Below are positions 6,211 through 64,000 of a stretch of 64,000 bases of DNA, piece after piece (the first letter of the stretch is position 1; each line of letters opens with the position of its first letter). The translations under genes were made by a program, and so were the position numbers. The notes under the pieces are model-generated. The model worked only from the letters and a program-made list of their open reading frames with translations. It was not told the origin of the DNA and did not search any database. Origin of the DNA: Phycisphaera sp. (lineage in GTDB: Bacteria > Planctomycetota > Phycisphaerae > Phycisphaerales > Phycisphaeraceae); contig WGMF01000016.1 in the NCBI GenBank assembly GCA_016125215.1, forward strand, positions 1-64,000, given 5' to 3'.

Positions 6211-6348
6211 TCTCGCGAAGCTCGCGAAGAGCGCGAAGCTTATGCGATACCTGATTCAGATTACTGGAAATGAGGACGCGCCAGCACAATAATCACCGGT
6301 ATTGCCACGAACTTTTTTCCCCTTAGCGTCTTCGCGAGCTTCGCGAGA
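6211..6348. repeat. 20-bp perfect inverted repeat with 9-bp internal period
   Basis: TCTCGCGAAGCTCGCGAAGA at 6211-6230 recurs as its exact reverse complement at 6329-6348. Each arm is itself built from near-identical 9-bp units (TCGCGAAGN). The left arm begins four bases after the dapL stop. The spacer of 98 bp holds no gene. Confidence 0.85.
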
Positions 6349-7709: not shown

Positions 7710-8175
7710 AGCATTTCCCGACGCGAGCGTCCACGCTTTCTTGTCCAAGTGGCGCACCGCTTCCCTGGCCACGGTCGACGCGCACAATCAACCGCACGCC
7801 GCGAACGTTCAGTATGTCCATGACGAGCATTGGAATCTCTACTTCGTCTCCAACCCCGCGTCGGCCCACAGCCTCCACGTCGAACATCAACCCCAGGTCG
7901 CTCTGACGGTCTACGCCCACACCCACGCCCCCAACCGGATCCACGGCCTGCAGATTCACGGGATATGCCGACGCATCACCGATGAAAGTGAATCCCGCCA
8001 CGCATGGAAACTCTACAGTTCCAAATTTGTCTTCGTAAAACTTCCGGGGGTCCGAAAGATCGTCAAACGCGAGAGCTTCTACGTGGTGACACCCACGTGG
8101 ATGCGCTGGATCGACAACCGCAGGGGCTTCGGGTTCAAGGTCGAGAAGCGGTTAGCCGCGAATAAACGCGAATAA
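7699..8175 (+). CDS. Pyridoxamine 5'-phosphate oxidase-like flavoprotein
   Basis: 158 residues starting inside the last codons of the MFS gene; GAGGTGG precedes the ATG. The segment RTASLATVDAHNQPHAANVQYVHDE and the following strand-rich part resemble the FMN-binding split-barrel family (PNPOx-like). The exact reaction is unknown: members include heme oxygenase-like, F420-dependent and general FMN reductases. The final residues LAANKRE and the stop codon are encoded by the intergenic repeat that begins at 8151, so the tail looks repeat-derived. Confidence 0.75.
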   Translation: MDREAFPDASVHAFLSKWRTASLATVDAHNQPHAANVQYVHDEHWNLYFVSNPASAHSLHVEHQPQVALTVYAHTHAPNRIHGLQIHGICRRITDESESRHAWKLYSSKFVFVKLPGVRKIVKRESFYVVTPTWMRWIDNRRGFGFKVEKRLAANKRE

Positions 8176-8384
8176 GAATCGATGGGAAACGCCAAGGACG
8201 CCAAGGGGCAATAGCGATCGCCCAATTGGATCAGGGTATGCTATTCAAGTGTTATTGATGTGACTGGGTCGGACACAAAACAAATAGTATTGATCATGAC
8301 TCCGCGAATTCCTGTCTTCTCTTGGCGCTCTTGGCGTTTCAACCCGAAATATTCGCGTTCATTCGCGTTCATTCGCGGCTAATG
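8151..8384. repeat. Composite inverted repeat between convergent genes
   Basis: The left arm holds GTTAGCCGCGAATAAACG followed by AAACGCCAAGGACGCCAAGG (8151-8206). The right arm (8320-8384) carries the reverse complement of both modules in mirrored order. Both modules have an internal short period (GCGAATGAAC, 10 bp; CGCCAAGGA, 9 bp). The outer edges lie inside the 3' coding ends of the flanking genes, giving each a similar tail (AANKRE and AANERE). Confidence 0.85.
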
Positions 8385-15572: not shown

Positions 15573-15781
15573 CCGCCAAGACGCCGAGAACACCAAGGGA
15601 GAAGGAGTTAGAAGACAGGAGTTAAGAGTGAGGCGATAGACGACGCAAGATCACACTCCCATTTAGCCCGGTCGCTTGCGACCGGTGGTTCCCCGAGTGA
15701 GATCATCAACCATCATTCATCAATTATCAATGGTCTTCTTCTTCGTCTGATCTTGGCGGTCCTGGCGTCTTGGCGGTTAAC
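15568..15781. repeat. 18-bp perfect inverted repeat between convergent genes
   Basis: GTTAACCGCCAAGACGCC at 15568-15585 recurs as its exact reverse complement at 15764-15781. The left arm includes the methyltransferase stop codon; the right arm ends six bases from the mcsB stop codon. The module AACCGCCAAGACGCC is the same CGCCAAG-type unit seen at 8189-8206 and 18967-18989. No gene lies in the 180-bp spacer. Confidence 0.85.
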
Positions 15782-18914: not shown

Positions 18915-19020
18915 TAGCCGCAGATGAACGCAGATGGACGCGGATGGGAAAAGGAAAATACAGCATTAGCCAAGAACGCCAAGAACACGCTTTGCCTCTA
19001 TCGGCGTTTATCGGCGGCTA
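18915..19020. repeat. Inverted repeat of TAGCCGCNGATNAACGC type
   Basis: The left arm is TAGCCGCAGATGAACGCAGA (from 18915, continuing with 10-bp period to 18946). The right arm at 18998-19020 is the reverse complement of a TAGCCGCCGATAAACGCCGA version. A CGCCAAGA-type module (18967-18989) lies between. The TAG at the outer edge of the right arm is the dsbD stop codon. The whole 18664-19017 gap otherwise holds only the tRNA. Confidence 0.8.
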
Positions 19021-20952
19021 TTTCTGCCTTGCCTTTTCCACCGCGGCCACGACCTGTTCGACGGTGTAGAAGTCGCCCTTGAAGACCTCGCGGCCGTCGG
19101 GGGCAAAGATGACGAGAAGGGGGATCGTCAAACGGTCGACGGAGCGGAGCATGTTGTTGCCGGCGGTGTTGTCCTTACTTGTGATGTCGACCTTGATCGG
19201 CGTCACCCCCCCCGCCCCCGGGAGTTTGAAGAGGGCGACTACACGCGGGTCGTGGAGTACGCTCTGTTCGAGGGTCTTGCAGTTGAGGCACCATTCGGCG
19301 GTGAAGTCCATGACGACGACGCTGCCTTTTGCCTTGGCGTCGGTGAAGCGCTGCGGGGTGTAGTAGACCCAATCGATCGGGCCTTTGTCGGTCAGGCGTT
19401 GGCCGAGCACGATTGAGGAGAGGACCACGATCACGCCGAGTGAGACGAAGACGCTCCGCCAGACGGGCTTGCGTGTGATGCGCAGCGTCTTCCATGCGAG
19501 CCAGAGTCCCGCGACGGCGGTGAAGCCAAAGACGACCCACCAGTAGAGGCTCGACGGCGGTTGTTCCGGTGGACGTGGGATCAGGCCGATCACGCCGATG
19601 CCTACGAAATAGGCCGCGGCCGCGAGCATGAACAGGCCCATGATCTGCTTGAGCAGTTCGCTGCCCGGCCCGGTGCGGGGAAGCTTGTCGATGAGCTTGG
19701 TGTTGATCGTAAGGATGAAGTAGGGCAGGGCCATGCCCAGGCCGATGAAGGCGAAGGTGGGCAGCGAAACGGTGGGGGGCTTTTGCGTTGCCCAACCGAT
19801 CGCGGCCCCCATAAACGGCGCGGTGCAGGGCGTCGAGAGCACAGCGGTCATCACGCCGAACCCGAAGCTGCCGAGCAGGGTGTCTTGTTTAGGGGTGACG
19901 TTGTAGACCGCGGTGGGGAGTCGGAAGGCGAAAAGCCCGCACATGCCCACCGCCATCGCCGCGATGAAGGCGCCCACACCGATGGTGAAGACTGGGTATT
20001 GAAAGAGCTTGTTCACCGCGTCGAAGCCGGAGACGGAAGCGATGGCCGCCCCGACCGCCAGCCAGAACGCCACGACGCCCAGCGACATGCTGATGCCCAG
20101 TGGCAGGACCTTGCCGTGCGCCGCCTGTTGCAGAGATAACACCTTGATAGGGATCACGGGCAGGACGCAGGGCGTGAAGTTCAAGAGGAACCCGCCCACC
20201 GCCGCGACAAGCCACAGCGCGATCAACCCGACGCCGGTGTCCGCGTCGATGTGGAAGCGTAAACCGAACAGATCGAAGGCAACGCTCTTCTCTCCGGGGG
20301 GAGTTGAACCGGAGTGGATTTTTGCCCAGACGCCTGCGTCGAAGCCCCGGAAGGTTTCGTCGGTGTCGACGGTGGGGGGCGTCTGGTTGGCGAGTGTCGC
20401 GGGGTCGACGATGTCGAGTGTTACGGTAACAGGCTGATCGAAGACCGGGGCGAGGCAGGTGTGTTCATCACACGACTGGTAGGTCACGTTGAGTGTGAGC
20501 GCGGTTTTACCCAGCGGTGTATCGGGGTTGATCGTGACGGGAACGTAGGCGACCGCCTTGCCCGCGAAGACGGCGTAGTCCACCGATTCACCGGTGAAAT
20601 CGACCTTGACCGTGACCGGTTTGGGCCATTGGATGAAGCCGGTGTGAGCGGTGAAAGTGTGGGGTATCTGCTGGTCGGGGGGTGCGGTGATCTGGGTCTT
20701 GATGTAATCGGAGGCCTCGCCGAGCTGGGGGGGAACCTGCGGGTCGTTCGTGTGGATGTGCCAGTGCTCATCGTGGTCGAAGACGACAGCAATAGCGATG
20801 TCCTGCCCGGGGGCAGCCACGGTGCGCTGGGCGGTCGCGGTGACGTGGACCCGGCTGGAAGAGTCCATAAACCCCTGACCAAGGGTCGTCCGGGTTACAA
20901 AAAAAGCTGACAAGATCAGCAACGGCAGAGGCCATCGAAGAAATCGGTTCAT
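19018..20952 (-). CDS. dsbD: DsbD-type thiol:disulfide reductase
   Basis: 644 residues. A signal peptide is followed by a periplasmic DsbD-alpha-like domain (about 30-190) with a cysteine pair in YQSCDEHTCLAP, then eight membrane segments with two redox cysteines in FTPCVLPVIPIKV and STPCTAPFMG, then a C-terminal thioredoxin-like domain with EWCLNC. Electrons from cytoplasmic thioredoxin would pass through the membrane core to the periplasm for cytochrome c maturation or disulfide repair. The inner ATG (MNRFLRWPLPLL) gives a clean signal peptide. Its stop codon is supplied by the intergenic repeat. Confidence 0.92.
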   Translation of the reverse strand: MNRFLRWPLPLLILSAFFVTRTTLGQGFMDSSSRVHVTATAQRTVAAPGQDIAIAVVFDHDEHWHIHTNDPQVPPQLGEASDYIKTQITAPPDQQIPHTFTAHTGFIQWPKPVTVKVDFTGESVDYAVFAGKAVAYVPVTINPDTPLGKTALTLNVTYQSCDEHTCLAPVFDQPVTVTLDIVDPATLANQTPPTVDTDETFRGFDAGVWAKIHSGSTPPGEKSVAFDLFGLRFHIDADTGVGLIALWLVAAVGGFLLNFTPCVLPVIPIKVLSLQQAAHGKVLPLGISMSLGVVAFWLAVGAAIASVSGFDAVNKLFQYPVFTIGVGAFIAAMAVGMCGLFAFRLPTAVYNVTPKQDTLLGSFGFGVMTAVLSTPCTAPFMGAAIGWATQKPPTVSLPTFAFIGLGMALPYFILTINTKLIDKLPRTGPGSELLKQIMGLFMLAAAAYFVGIGVIGLIPRPPEQPPSSLYWWVVFGFTAVAGLWLAWKTLRITRKPVWRSVFVSLGVIVVLSSIVLGQRLTDKGPIDWVYYTPQRFTDAKAKGSVVVMDFTAEWCLNCKTLEQSVLHDPRVVALFKLPGAGGVTPIKVDITSKDNTAGNNMLRSVDRLTIPLLVIFAPDGREVFKGDFYTVEQVVAAVEKARQK

Positions 20953-21120
20953 GGGCGGGTAGGGGGCGTTGGGGTATTTCATGTTCCGATACAGAAACCG
21001 CAGATTACGCAGATTTCACAGGTTCAGATCAGACGCGGGGTGTCGCAGAGCTTTCAAGCCAAACCCCCGGTGGTTCCGATATTAAGCGATAACCCGCCTT
21101 TGGGTGTATTTGTTCCCCAA

Positions 21121-21213
21121 CCCGTCACCCGTCACCCGTCACCCGTCACCCGTCACCCGTCACCCGTCACCCGTCACCCGTCACCCGTCACCCGTCACCC
21201 GTCACCCGTCACC
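21121..21213 (+). repeat. Heptanucleotide tandem repeat (CCCGTCA)13 before fliM
   Basis: About 13.3 perfect copies of CCCGTCA run to five bases before the fliM ATG, occupying the leader and ribosome-binding region. No Shine-Dalgarno sequence is visible between the repeat and the ATG. Because 7 is not a multiple of 3, all three forward frames read the same heptapeptide cycle PVTRHPS without stops. An in-frame GTG at 21104 could feed through the repeat into fliM at the present copy number. Confidence 0.95.
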
Positions 21214-21217
21214 AATC

Positions 21218-22243
21218 ATGCCCGAAGTCCTTGACCAGTCCGAAGTCGATGCTCTTCTTGCCGCGGTCGATAGCGGTGAAGTCAAGGAGGTCGCGCAAGA
21301 GGGCGAGCTCAAGGTTTTTTCCCGCCGGCACCACGGGGCCGCCCCCGACGCCGAGATCAAGCCTTACGACTTCAAACGCCCCGAGCGCGTGAGCAAGGAG
21401 CAGATGCGCGCGATCGAGAACCTGCACGAGGCGTTCAGCCGAAACTTCGGCGCCTCGCTCTCGGGCTTCCTGCGGACGATCATGGAGTGCCGTGTCTCGA
21501 ACATCGAACAGATGACCTTCAGCGAGTTCACCCACTCGCTTCCCAACCCGACGTGCTTCAACCTGCTCTCGTGCGAGCCGCTCGAAGGCAGCATGTGCCT
21601 CGAGATCAGCCCGCTGATCGTCTACCCCGTGATCGACCGCCTGCTCGGCGGGTCCAACGCGGACCTGTTCATCCCCCAGCGCCCGCTGACCGCTATCGAG
21701 ATGCGGCTGGTCGGCAAGATCATCGCCCGTGCGATGTCCGCGCTCAAGGAAGCCTGGTCCACCGTGCTCAACCTCGAGTTCAAACTCACCGAGAGCGAGA
21801 GCAACCCGCAGCTCGTCCAGATCGTTCCCCCCAACGAGGTGGTGGTCGTGGTGAGTTTTGAGCTGAAGATGGGCGGACGGGCCGGCACGATGAGCCTGTG
21901 CATCCCCTACAACGTCACCGAGCCGGTCATCGAAAAACTGTCCAACCAGACCTGGGCCGCCTACAAACGCAACAAGCGCGACGTCAAGCTGCGCGGCAAG
22001 GTGGCCACCCAACTCGACGCCGCCAAGCTCACCGTCAAGAGCGTCCTGGCCGAGACGAGCATCAAGCTCTCCGAACTCATGTCCCTGCAGGTCGGCGACG
22101 TGATCCTCACCGAAAAACCCGCCACCGCGCCGCTGACATTGCTCATCGGCGGCCGGCGAAAACACATCGGGCACCTCGGCCAATACCGGGGCAACCGCGC
22201 TTTCAAGGTCCTGCGCGCCTATCAGCCCAAAGACCGGGTGTGA
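21218..22243 (+). CDS. fliM: Flagellar motor switch protein FliM
   Basis: 341 residues from the ATG just after the heptamer repeat. The N-terminus LDQSEVDALLAAVDSG is the CheY-P-binding motif, the middle domain (YDFKRPERVSKEQMRAIENLHEAF onward) builds the C ring and binds FliG, and the C-terminal SpoA domain (SIKLSELMSLQVGDVI) binds FliN. The upstream in-frame extension would add a PVTRHPS repeat peptide that FliM proteins do not have. No other flagellar gene is in the window. The following genes are a STAS protein and an RsbW-like ATPase in the same direction. Confidence 0.95.
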   Translation: MPEVLDQSEVDALLAAVDSGEVKEVAQEGELKVFSRRHHGAAPDAEIKPYDFKRPERVSKEQMRAIENLHEAFSRNFGASLSGFLRTIMECRVSNIEQMTFSEFTHSLPNPTCFNLLSCEPLEGSMCLEISPLIVYPVIDRLLGGSNADLFIPQRPLTAIEMRLVGKIIARAMSALKEAWSTVLNLEFKLTESESNPQLVQIVPPNEVVVVVSFELKMGGRAGTMSLCIPYNVTEPVIEKLSNQTWAAYKRNKRDVKLRGKVATQLDAAKLTVKSVLAETSIKLSELMSLQVGDVILTEKPATAPLTLLIGGRRKHIGHLGQYRGNRAFKVLRAYQPKDRV

Positions 22244-41000: not shown

Positions 41001-41149
41001 TTTAGCCTCGAATGAACGCGAATGAACGCGAATGGAAACAGAATAACAAAGAGATACTAATCAACACGGGTTGAAGGCACGGCCTGTGTCATGAGGGCCA
41101 TGAGTCAATCCGGTTTCATTTGCGTTTATTCGCGTTCATTCGCGGCTAA
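41001..41149. repeat. Inverted GCGAATGAAC repeat between trpF and the helicase gene
   Basis: The left arm (41001-41035) reads TTAGCCTCGAATGAACGCGA and continues with the same 10-bp period. The right arm (41115-41149) is the reverse complement, ending in CGCGGCTAA. The right arm abuts the TGA stop of the helicase gene at 41150-41152; the left arm lies upstream of trpF, so here only one stop codon is involved. Confidence 0.85.
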
Positions 41150-59510: not shown

Positions 59511-59565
59511 CCCCCGGAAGTTTCCCCCCGGAAGTTTCCCCCCGGAAGTTTCCCCCGGAAGTTAT
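59511..59565. repeat. Four tandem CCCCCGGAAGTTT units downstream of secA
   Basis: Units of 13-14 bp in succession: CCCCCGGAAGTTT, CCCCCCGGAAGTTT twice, and CCCCCGGAAGTTA. They lie between the secA stop and the DUF6785-like start. A similar CCCCGGAA-rich block lies upstream of secA. Confidence 0.9.
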
Positions 59566-63771: not shown

Positions 63772-63827
63772 CTTCCGGGGTTCCGGGGTTCCGGGGGACT
63801 GCTTCCGGGGTTCCGGGGTTCCCGGGG
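63772..63827. repeat. TTCCGGGG tandem units upstream of secA
   Basis: Six TTCCGGGG-type units of 8-9 bp in two groups of three, separated by ACTG. The reverse complement is CCCCGGAA, the core of the repeat downstream of secA. The block lies between secA and the partial gene at the right edge and may include promoter elements of secA. Confidence 0.85.
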
Positions 63828-64000
63828 TCAGCGCGTGGGTGGGGGGAGGTCGATGTGGGCGAAGCGGGAGGTGTGCGATTGCGATTGCAGCGCGGTGGGT
63901 GTGGCTTCAGAGGTTTGGCGGTCAACCGTCAGGGATGTCGGGCAATGGCCATTGCACTGGGTGAGGATCGCGGCAAAGGGTGTCTGTCCGACGGGTTTGA
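63828..64000 (-). CDS. Partial gene, C-terminal 57 codons, unidentified
   Basis: An open frame enters from the right edge and ends with TGA at 63828-63830. The visible protein is KPVGQTPFAAILTQCNGHC, then a polar serine/threonine-rich stretch ending HIDLPPPTR. It has no known motif apart from a CNGHC pair that could bind metal or form a disulfide. The low-complexity end and short length leave doubt. If real, it lies directly upstream of secA in the same direction. Confidence 0.4.
   Translation of the reverse strand, partial: KPVGQTPFAAILTQCNGHCPTSLTVDRQTSEATPTALQSQSHTSRFAHIDLPPPTR

Follow-up and report, generated by a model that had tools for sequence, protein, structure and literature searches.

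The heptanucleotide array that ends just before fliM in the 64-kb window analysed here (the whole stretch of 64,000 nucleotides) is probably a recently expanded, homogeneous member of an intergenic heptamer family with the consensus TCACCAG, and its effect on the gene would be neutral or weakly graded. The preliminary description had proposed that slipped-strand changes in the array switch fliM, and with it motility. We found no support for this, because the array is one of roughly 40 related arrays that this Phycisphaeraceae-like planctomycete genome has beside unrelated, largely essential genes, and it is better regarded as an ordinary leader repeat that has recently lengthened. The features of the region are as follows.

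19018..20868, minus strand: DsbD-like thiol:disulfide interchange protein, the divergent neighbour (Pfam DsbD_TM, Thioredoxin_7, DsbD_N); its longest ORF extends to 20982
21053..21058, plus strand: -35-like element TTCAAG of the predicted fliM promoter, a motif class at fixed spacing in relatives
21076..21083, plus strand: -10-like element CCGATATT of a putative sigma-28 (FliA)-type promoter (CCGATA is 21076-21081)
21104..21106, plus strand: GTG that matches the fliM frame when 13 units are present; it lies in the predicted leader and is probably no start codon, the N-terminal extension not being conserved
21120..21213, plus strand: heptanucleotide array (ACCCGTC)13.4 (TRF: period 7, 100% matches, no indels)
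21120..21213, minus strand: G-rich strand (TGACGGG)n of the same array
21218..22243, plus strand: fliM, 341 aa, ATG start at 21218 (Pfam FliM PF02154, E = 3e-66; FliMN_C, E = 3.3e-17)

The array and the translation start of fliM

With a TRF score of 188, the fliM array ranks highest among the tandem arrays of the window. Positions 21121-21211 hold 13 full CCCGTCA units, all identical, in agreement with the 13 or so perfect copies reported earlier (13.4 copies by TRF); chance origin of 13 identical tandem 7-mers within 64 kb is excluded, and across the genome the CCCGTCA pattern gave 14 matches versus none for the reversed motif. The last full unit ends at 21211 and is followed by CCAATC and then by the fliM ATG, so the distance of five bases first given between array and ATG holds only approximately: the ATG at 21218 is 4 nt past the TRF end and 6 past the last full unit. 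What had been said of the reading frames was correct, in that the forward frames of the repeat are open and encode a PVTRHPS cycle and the minus-strand unit TGACGGG gives a TGA in every frame. The leader of fliM does contain a simple repeat that is long and homogeneous; this repeat is likely to be unstable in length, and variation in its copy number is plausible. Because the genome is a draft in 58 contigs, one might suspect that the exact copy number, or even the array as such, is an artefact of assembly; however, ordinary reads span 94 bp, and similar arrays are present in independent assemblies, one of them with a 4.1-Mb contig, which makes an artefact exceedingly improbable.

The fliM start was compared among relatives, with 40 named loci from GTDB contigs, mostly Phycisphaeraceae MAGs, and with a set of 42 unique upstream regions; the relatives represent one genome per species, none of the same genus. 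FliM is present in 48 of 51 family genomes and aligns from residue 1 in nearly all, and its N-terminus is conserved among the relatives from the ATG at 21218. Three exact 7-mer copies upstream of fliM were found in 0 of the 42 unique upstream regions. In-frame stops occur 2-26 codons upstream of the gene in about 70% of relatives, so an N-terminal extension of FliM is not conserved. The lack of a visible Shine-Dalgarno (SD) sequence noted earlier also holds (no SD-like 4-mer at -20..-4); since only 14 of 42 relatives have such a 4-mer in that interval, a missing SD seems normal for fliM. Given the conserved N-terminus, the absence of the repeat from relatives and the position of the array inside the 5' UTR as set by a conserved promoter (below), translation almost certainly starts at 21218, and gain or loss of a unit would alter the length of the leader and leave the frame of FliM from this ATG unchanged.

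An on/off switch by frame would call for a different start. The GTG at 21104 does, as first described, share the reading frame of fliM at the present 13 units, opening an ORF of 21104-22243, and so does the TTG at 21110; with every frame of the repeat open, translation from either codon would leave it to the unit number modulo 3 whether FliM is synthesized. Two codons in frame at n = 13 are what a functional extension would give, and they count to that extent against the explanation that we prefer. However, no SD is visible before the GTG or the TTG, the ATG at 21218 is usable at any copy number, and the N-terminus of FliM is conserved at that ATG, with relatives that lack the repeat and mostly carry the upstream stops. 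We therefore take the GTG reading to be incidental and consider a frame switch highly improbable.

Promoter, leader and FliM level

The promoter predicted for fliM in the window reads TTCAAG-N17-CCGATA (21053-21081). Of 42 family relatives, 41 have a YCGATA element ahead of fliM, where 0.04 would be expected per 125 bp, and T-T-n-A-A/G-G stands 17 bp before it in 19 of the 42 and 16 bp before it in three; when spacings from 12 to 22 were scanned, none of the 42 relatives had the -35-like motif at any other spacing. A FliA-family sigma factor is encoded in the genome (252.6 bits, over the cut-off). Because the -35 element and the spacing are unlike the E. coli sigma-28 consensus, the sigma-28 (FliA)-type assignment is likely rather than proven. 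Transcription would start near 21088-21092. The -10 element lies 142 bp from the ATG; subtracting the 91 bp of the 13 units leaves 51 bp, near the median of 49 among relatives with the motif, and for this reason the array is most readily interpreted as having expanded within the 5' UTR.

When the leader was folded in silico with 0 to 20 units, the predicted accessibility of the start region was 0.51-0.53 for n = 1-20 and 0.41 at n = 0, so no strong structural effect of unit number is predicted. Taken with the conserved N-terminus and the place of the array in the 5' UTR, this flat profile leaves the earlier proposal of a fliM or motility switch unsupported. According to the explanation that we favor, the array would have grown by replication slippage inside the 5' UTR, its copy number would drift in 7-nt steps and FliM would always be read from the ATG at 21218; any effect on FliM level, through leader length or a pyrimidine-rich leader without an SD, would be nil or mildly graded rather than on/off.

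Alternatively, the number of repeats in the 5' UTR could set the FliM level stepwise and so produce cell-to-cell variation in motility. The array does lie between promoter and start codon, its perfect homogeneity suggests a recent change in length, and there is a precedent in Haemophilus influenzae, where 7-bp repeats upstream of the adhesin loci hmw1A and hmw2A are reported to have a length-dependent effect on expression (PMC2651432). The likeness to hmw1A/hmw2A lies in the copy number (about 13-38 heptads) and in a position roughly 70-110 bp upstream of the gene, near the promoter; unlike those repeats, the array here belongs to a genome-wide family. Set against such tuning are the related arrays at essential, unrelated genes and a predicted start accessibility that does not change from 1 to 20 units, and we regard it as rather unlikely.

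The heptamer family and its polarity

Further CCCGTCA arrays are present in the genome at C9:7122 (4 units), at C58:6414 (3 units) and at five 2-unit sites. A search for TCACNNN x3 gave 99 overlapping matches, versus 7 for the reversed control, which correspond to about 39 separate arrays, an array being counted in the family when it has 3 or more TCACNNN units. The unit consensus is TCAC-C/T-A/C-G/C, most commonly TCACCAG (44 units) and then TCACCCG (29), the latter being the variant found at fliM. Most arrays are degenerate and a few are homogeneous; no other member in this genome is as long or as homogeneous as the one at fliM, which might accordingly be under special selection, a point that also counts against the explanation we prefer. 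Of 67 period-7 arrays in a sample with 85% coding DNA, 64 lie outside called genes.

The functions of the adjoining genes (bamA, nuoK, groES, hisS, gatB, ahcY, rplK, tgt and fliM) are unrelated. By Pfam, the 39 neighbors examined include O-antigen ligase, BamA, NuoK, RuvA, GroES, AhcY and L11, together with T2SS F proteins, TGT, HisRS, GatB, a Rieske protein, an L,D-transpeptidase and FliM. The class thus showed no association with contingency or surface genes, its neighbors being mostly housekeeping, and since a cell that lost HisRS or GatB to such a switch would presumably die, the heptad class as a whole does not appear to be a contingency system.

What the arrays do share is orientation. 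Of 36 evaluable arrays, 32 come closer to an ORF with the 3' end of the C-rich strand than with its 5' end (p about 1e-6 by a one-sided sign test; 31 of 36 when the edge tolerance was set slightly differently), and an ORF lies within 50 bp on the 3' side of this strand in 32/36, as against 9/36 on the other side. Gene edges came from our own calls with a codon model that had been trained on the genome sample, and they are only in part supported by Pfam families whose ends are known (NuoK, Cpn10, HisRS, GatB, L11 and BamA), which is a further reservation about the preferred explanation. The near edge is either a start, in which case the mRNA has the C-rich strand, or a stop, in which case it has the G-rich strand, sometimes supplying the TGA; the fliM array, 4-5 bp from the ATG, fits placement on the start side. 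Other TCA-core heptads of the genome have a like polarity (23/27, p = 1.6e-4), and arrays of other periods have no clear one (period 8, 6/15; period 9, 25/40; period 10, 13/18; period 12, 5/9). We considered a per-unit TGA acting as an all-frame stop at ORF exits and rejected it: it fits the TCAC heptads but not the GGGAATC heptad of Xanthomonas, which has no stop on either strand.

The minus strand of the fliM array, (TGACGGG)13, contains three consecutive G3N4 quadruplex motifs (G4Hunter 1.29), and the heptads of Xanthomonas and Nostoc form G-quadruplexes (G4s) in vitro (PMC4692102). A G-quadruplex on the template strand, or an i-motif, might accordingly be thought to modulate fliM transcription. 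However, only 3 of 39 arrays (fliM and two others) are G4-capable by sequence, and among the 36 of 39 that are not, polarity is kept in 28 of 33 evaluable arrays (p = 3e-5). G4 formation thus neither defines nor places the family, and we consider a quadruplex or i-motif element at fliM decidedly unlikely. As G4-forming units, preferably four, are not found across the family as a whole, it is classed here by heptad period and position and not as a G4 repeat.

Several other repeats were observed. TCACCAG regions of this genome often have, in a composite layout, ATTGATG and ATGTCTG (then TCAGAG) heptad arrays as well (L129, L131, L132, L134, L144, L147, L148, L149); the C-rich strand of the ATTGATG/ATGTCTG arrays faces the opposite way, to the other edge of the region. 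The 5' flanks of several arrays share ATTGATG, ATGTCTG and the GGTCGCAAGCGACC palindrome, with no common boundary evident, and an origin from a mobile element was rejected. The palindrome is dispersed, REP-like and intergenic (CCGGTCGCAAGCGACCGGGCTAAAT, with a GGTCGCAAGCGACC core), occurring at window position 15670 (minus strand) and at L016, L021, L131, L134, L135, L136 and L140; its core has one copy in the window and 8 both-strand matches in the rest of the sample. Nonamer-type direct repeats, CGCAGATTACGCAGATT, are found at window positions 18919 and 20999, the latter just upstream of the fliM promoter, and the rest of the sample has 21 copies of a looser form. The window also has short 9-10 bp tandem arrays that are paired in inverted orientation at a distance of about 100-200 bp, for example CGCGAATAAA ... 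ATTCGCGTTC (8157-8377, 6212-6347 and 41009-41144), and CCCCCGGAAGT-type tandem repeats (59511-59563 and 63773-63828), to which CCCCCGGAAG arrays at other places of the genome sample (such as L157, L158 and L149) are related.

Related genomes and known heptamer systems

CCCGTCA x3 is confined to this genome, none of 60 relatives having it. Arrays of TCACNNN x4 are present in 13 of 61 genomes, and others have arrays with another phase or another heptad. The sequence varies by genome: TCACGAC in G011, TCACTCR/TCACTGT in G009, CACTGAC in G014 and CACTAGG in G048. G009 has a clear polarity (20/23, p = 2e-4, with 22/23 within 50 bp), and a weaker one is seen in G011 (10/15) and G014 (10/15), in the last of which the codon-model calls partly missed an ORF-stop / array / array / ATG layout that is seen in the sequences. 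Inverted-pair heptads occupy both edges of one intergenic region in G009, where this is frequent, and in G014 (L190, L194, L202, L211, L215), the G-rich strand of each running outward from the ORF. A literature search found no report of heptad arrays in Planctomycetes.

Rehm et al. (2015) described GGGAATC / GGGGA(C/T)T (GGGNATC-type) heptads in Xanthomonas and Nostoc that occur as inverted pairs, lie between divergent ORFs in only a few cases and have neighbors of random function; phase variation was judged unlikely and G4s were stressed (PMC4692102). The arrays reported here are similarly dispersed, non-coding 7-mer arrays with inverted pairs, rare between divergent ORFs and beside genes of random function; as in Xanthomonas and Nostoc, their G-rich strand is non-coding at most 50 bp upstream of ORFs or coding at most 50 bp from stops, some overlap the stop codon, and the fliM array shares G3N4 units (PMC4692102). 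They differ in the heptad itself (TGACTGG/TGACGGG on the G-rich strand), in units that are mostly degenerate and not G4-capable, in the host phylum, Planctomycetota, and in that each relative has its own heptad (PMC4692102). TAACTGA repeats that end just before starts are known from marine Beggiatoaceae (MacGregor 2015; PMC4679880), and these too are direct repeats of a heptamer that are oriented, lie mostly between genes and end a few bases before starts that mostly lack an RBS, at genes without a functional pattern. In Beggiatoaceae, however, the heptad is another one, the TGA-strand runs toward the start codon where the TCA-strand does here, and the repeats are rarely at stop codons (PMC4679880). 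Like the arrays of Rehm et al., those of this genome are many, of one heptad family, intergenic, polar and beside unrelated genes, and we place the fliM array as a further member of this known, dispersed kind of heptamer repeat with ORF-edge polarity.

One could go further and suppose that each Phycisphaeraceae genome has a heptad "dialect" of its own, made up of polar repeats that are anchored at ORF edges and point outward, and that were placed by some directional process, or by a factor linked to translation or transcription, and not by G-quadruplexes; the fliM array would then be an expanded and hypermutable member with an added role in tuning FliM. In this full form we hold the idea to be unlikely.

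A suspected motility switch thus becomes one example of a class that is still poorly understood, the polar ORF-edge heptamer arrays of distant phyla, which now spans Xanthomonas, Nostoc and Planctomycetota and which a published idea links to G-quadruplexes. Because polarity persists in the arrays that are not G4-capable and related genomes have different heptads, the origin of this polarity, whether selection on mRNA ends or directional growth of the repeat, is directly testable.
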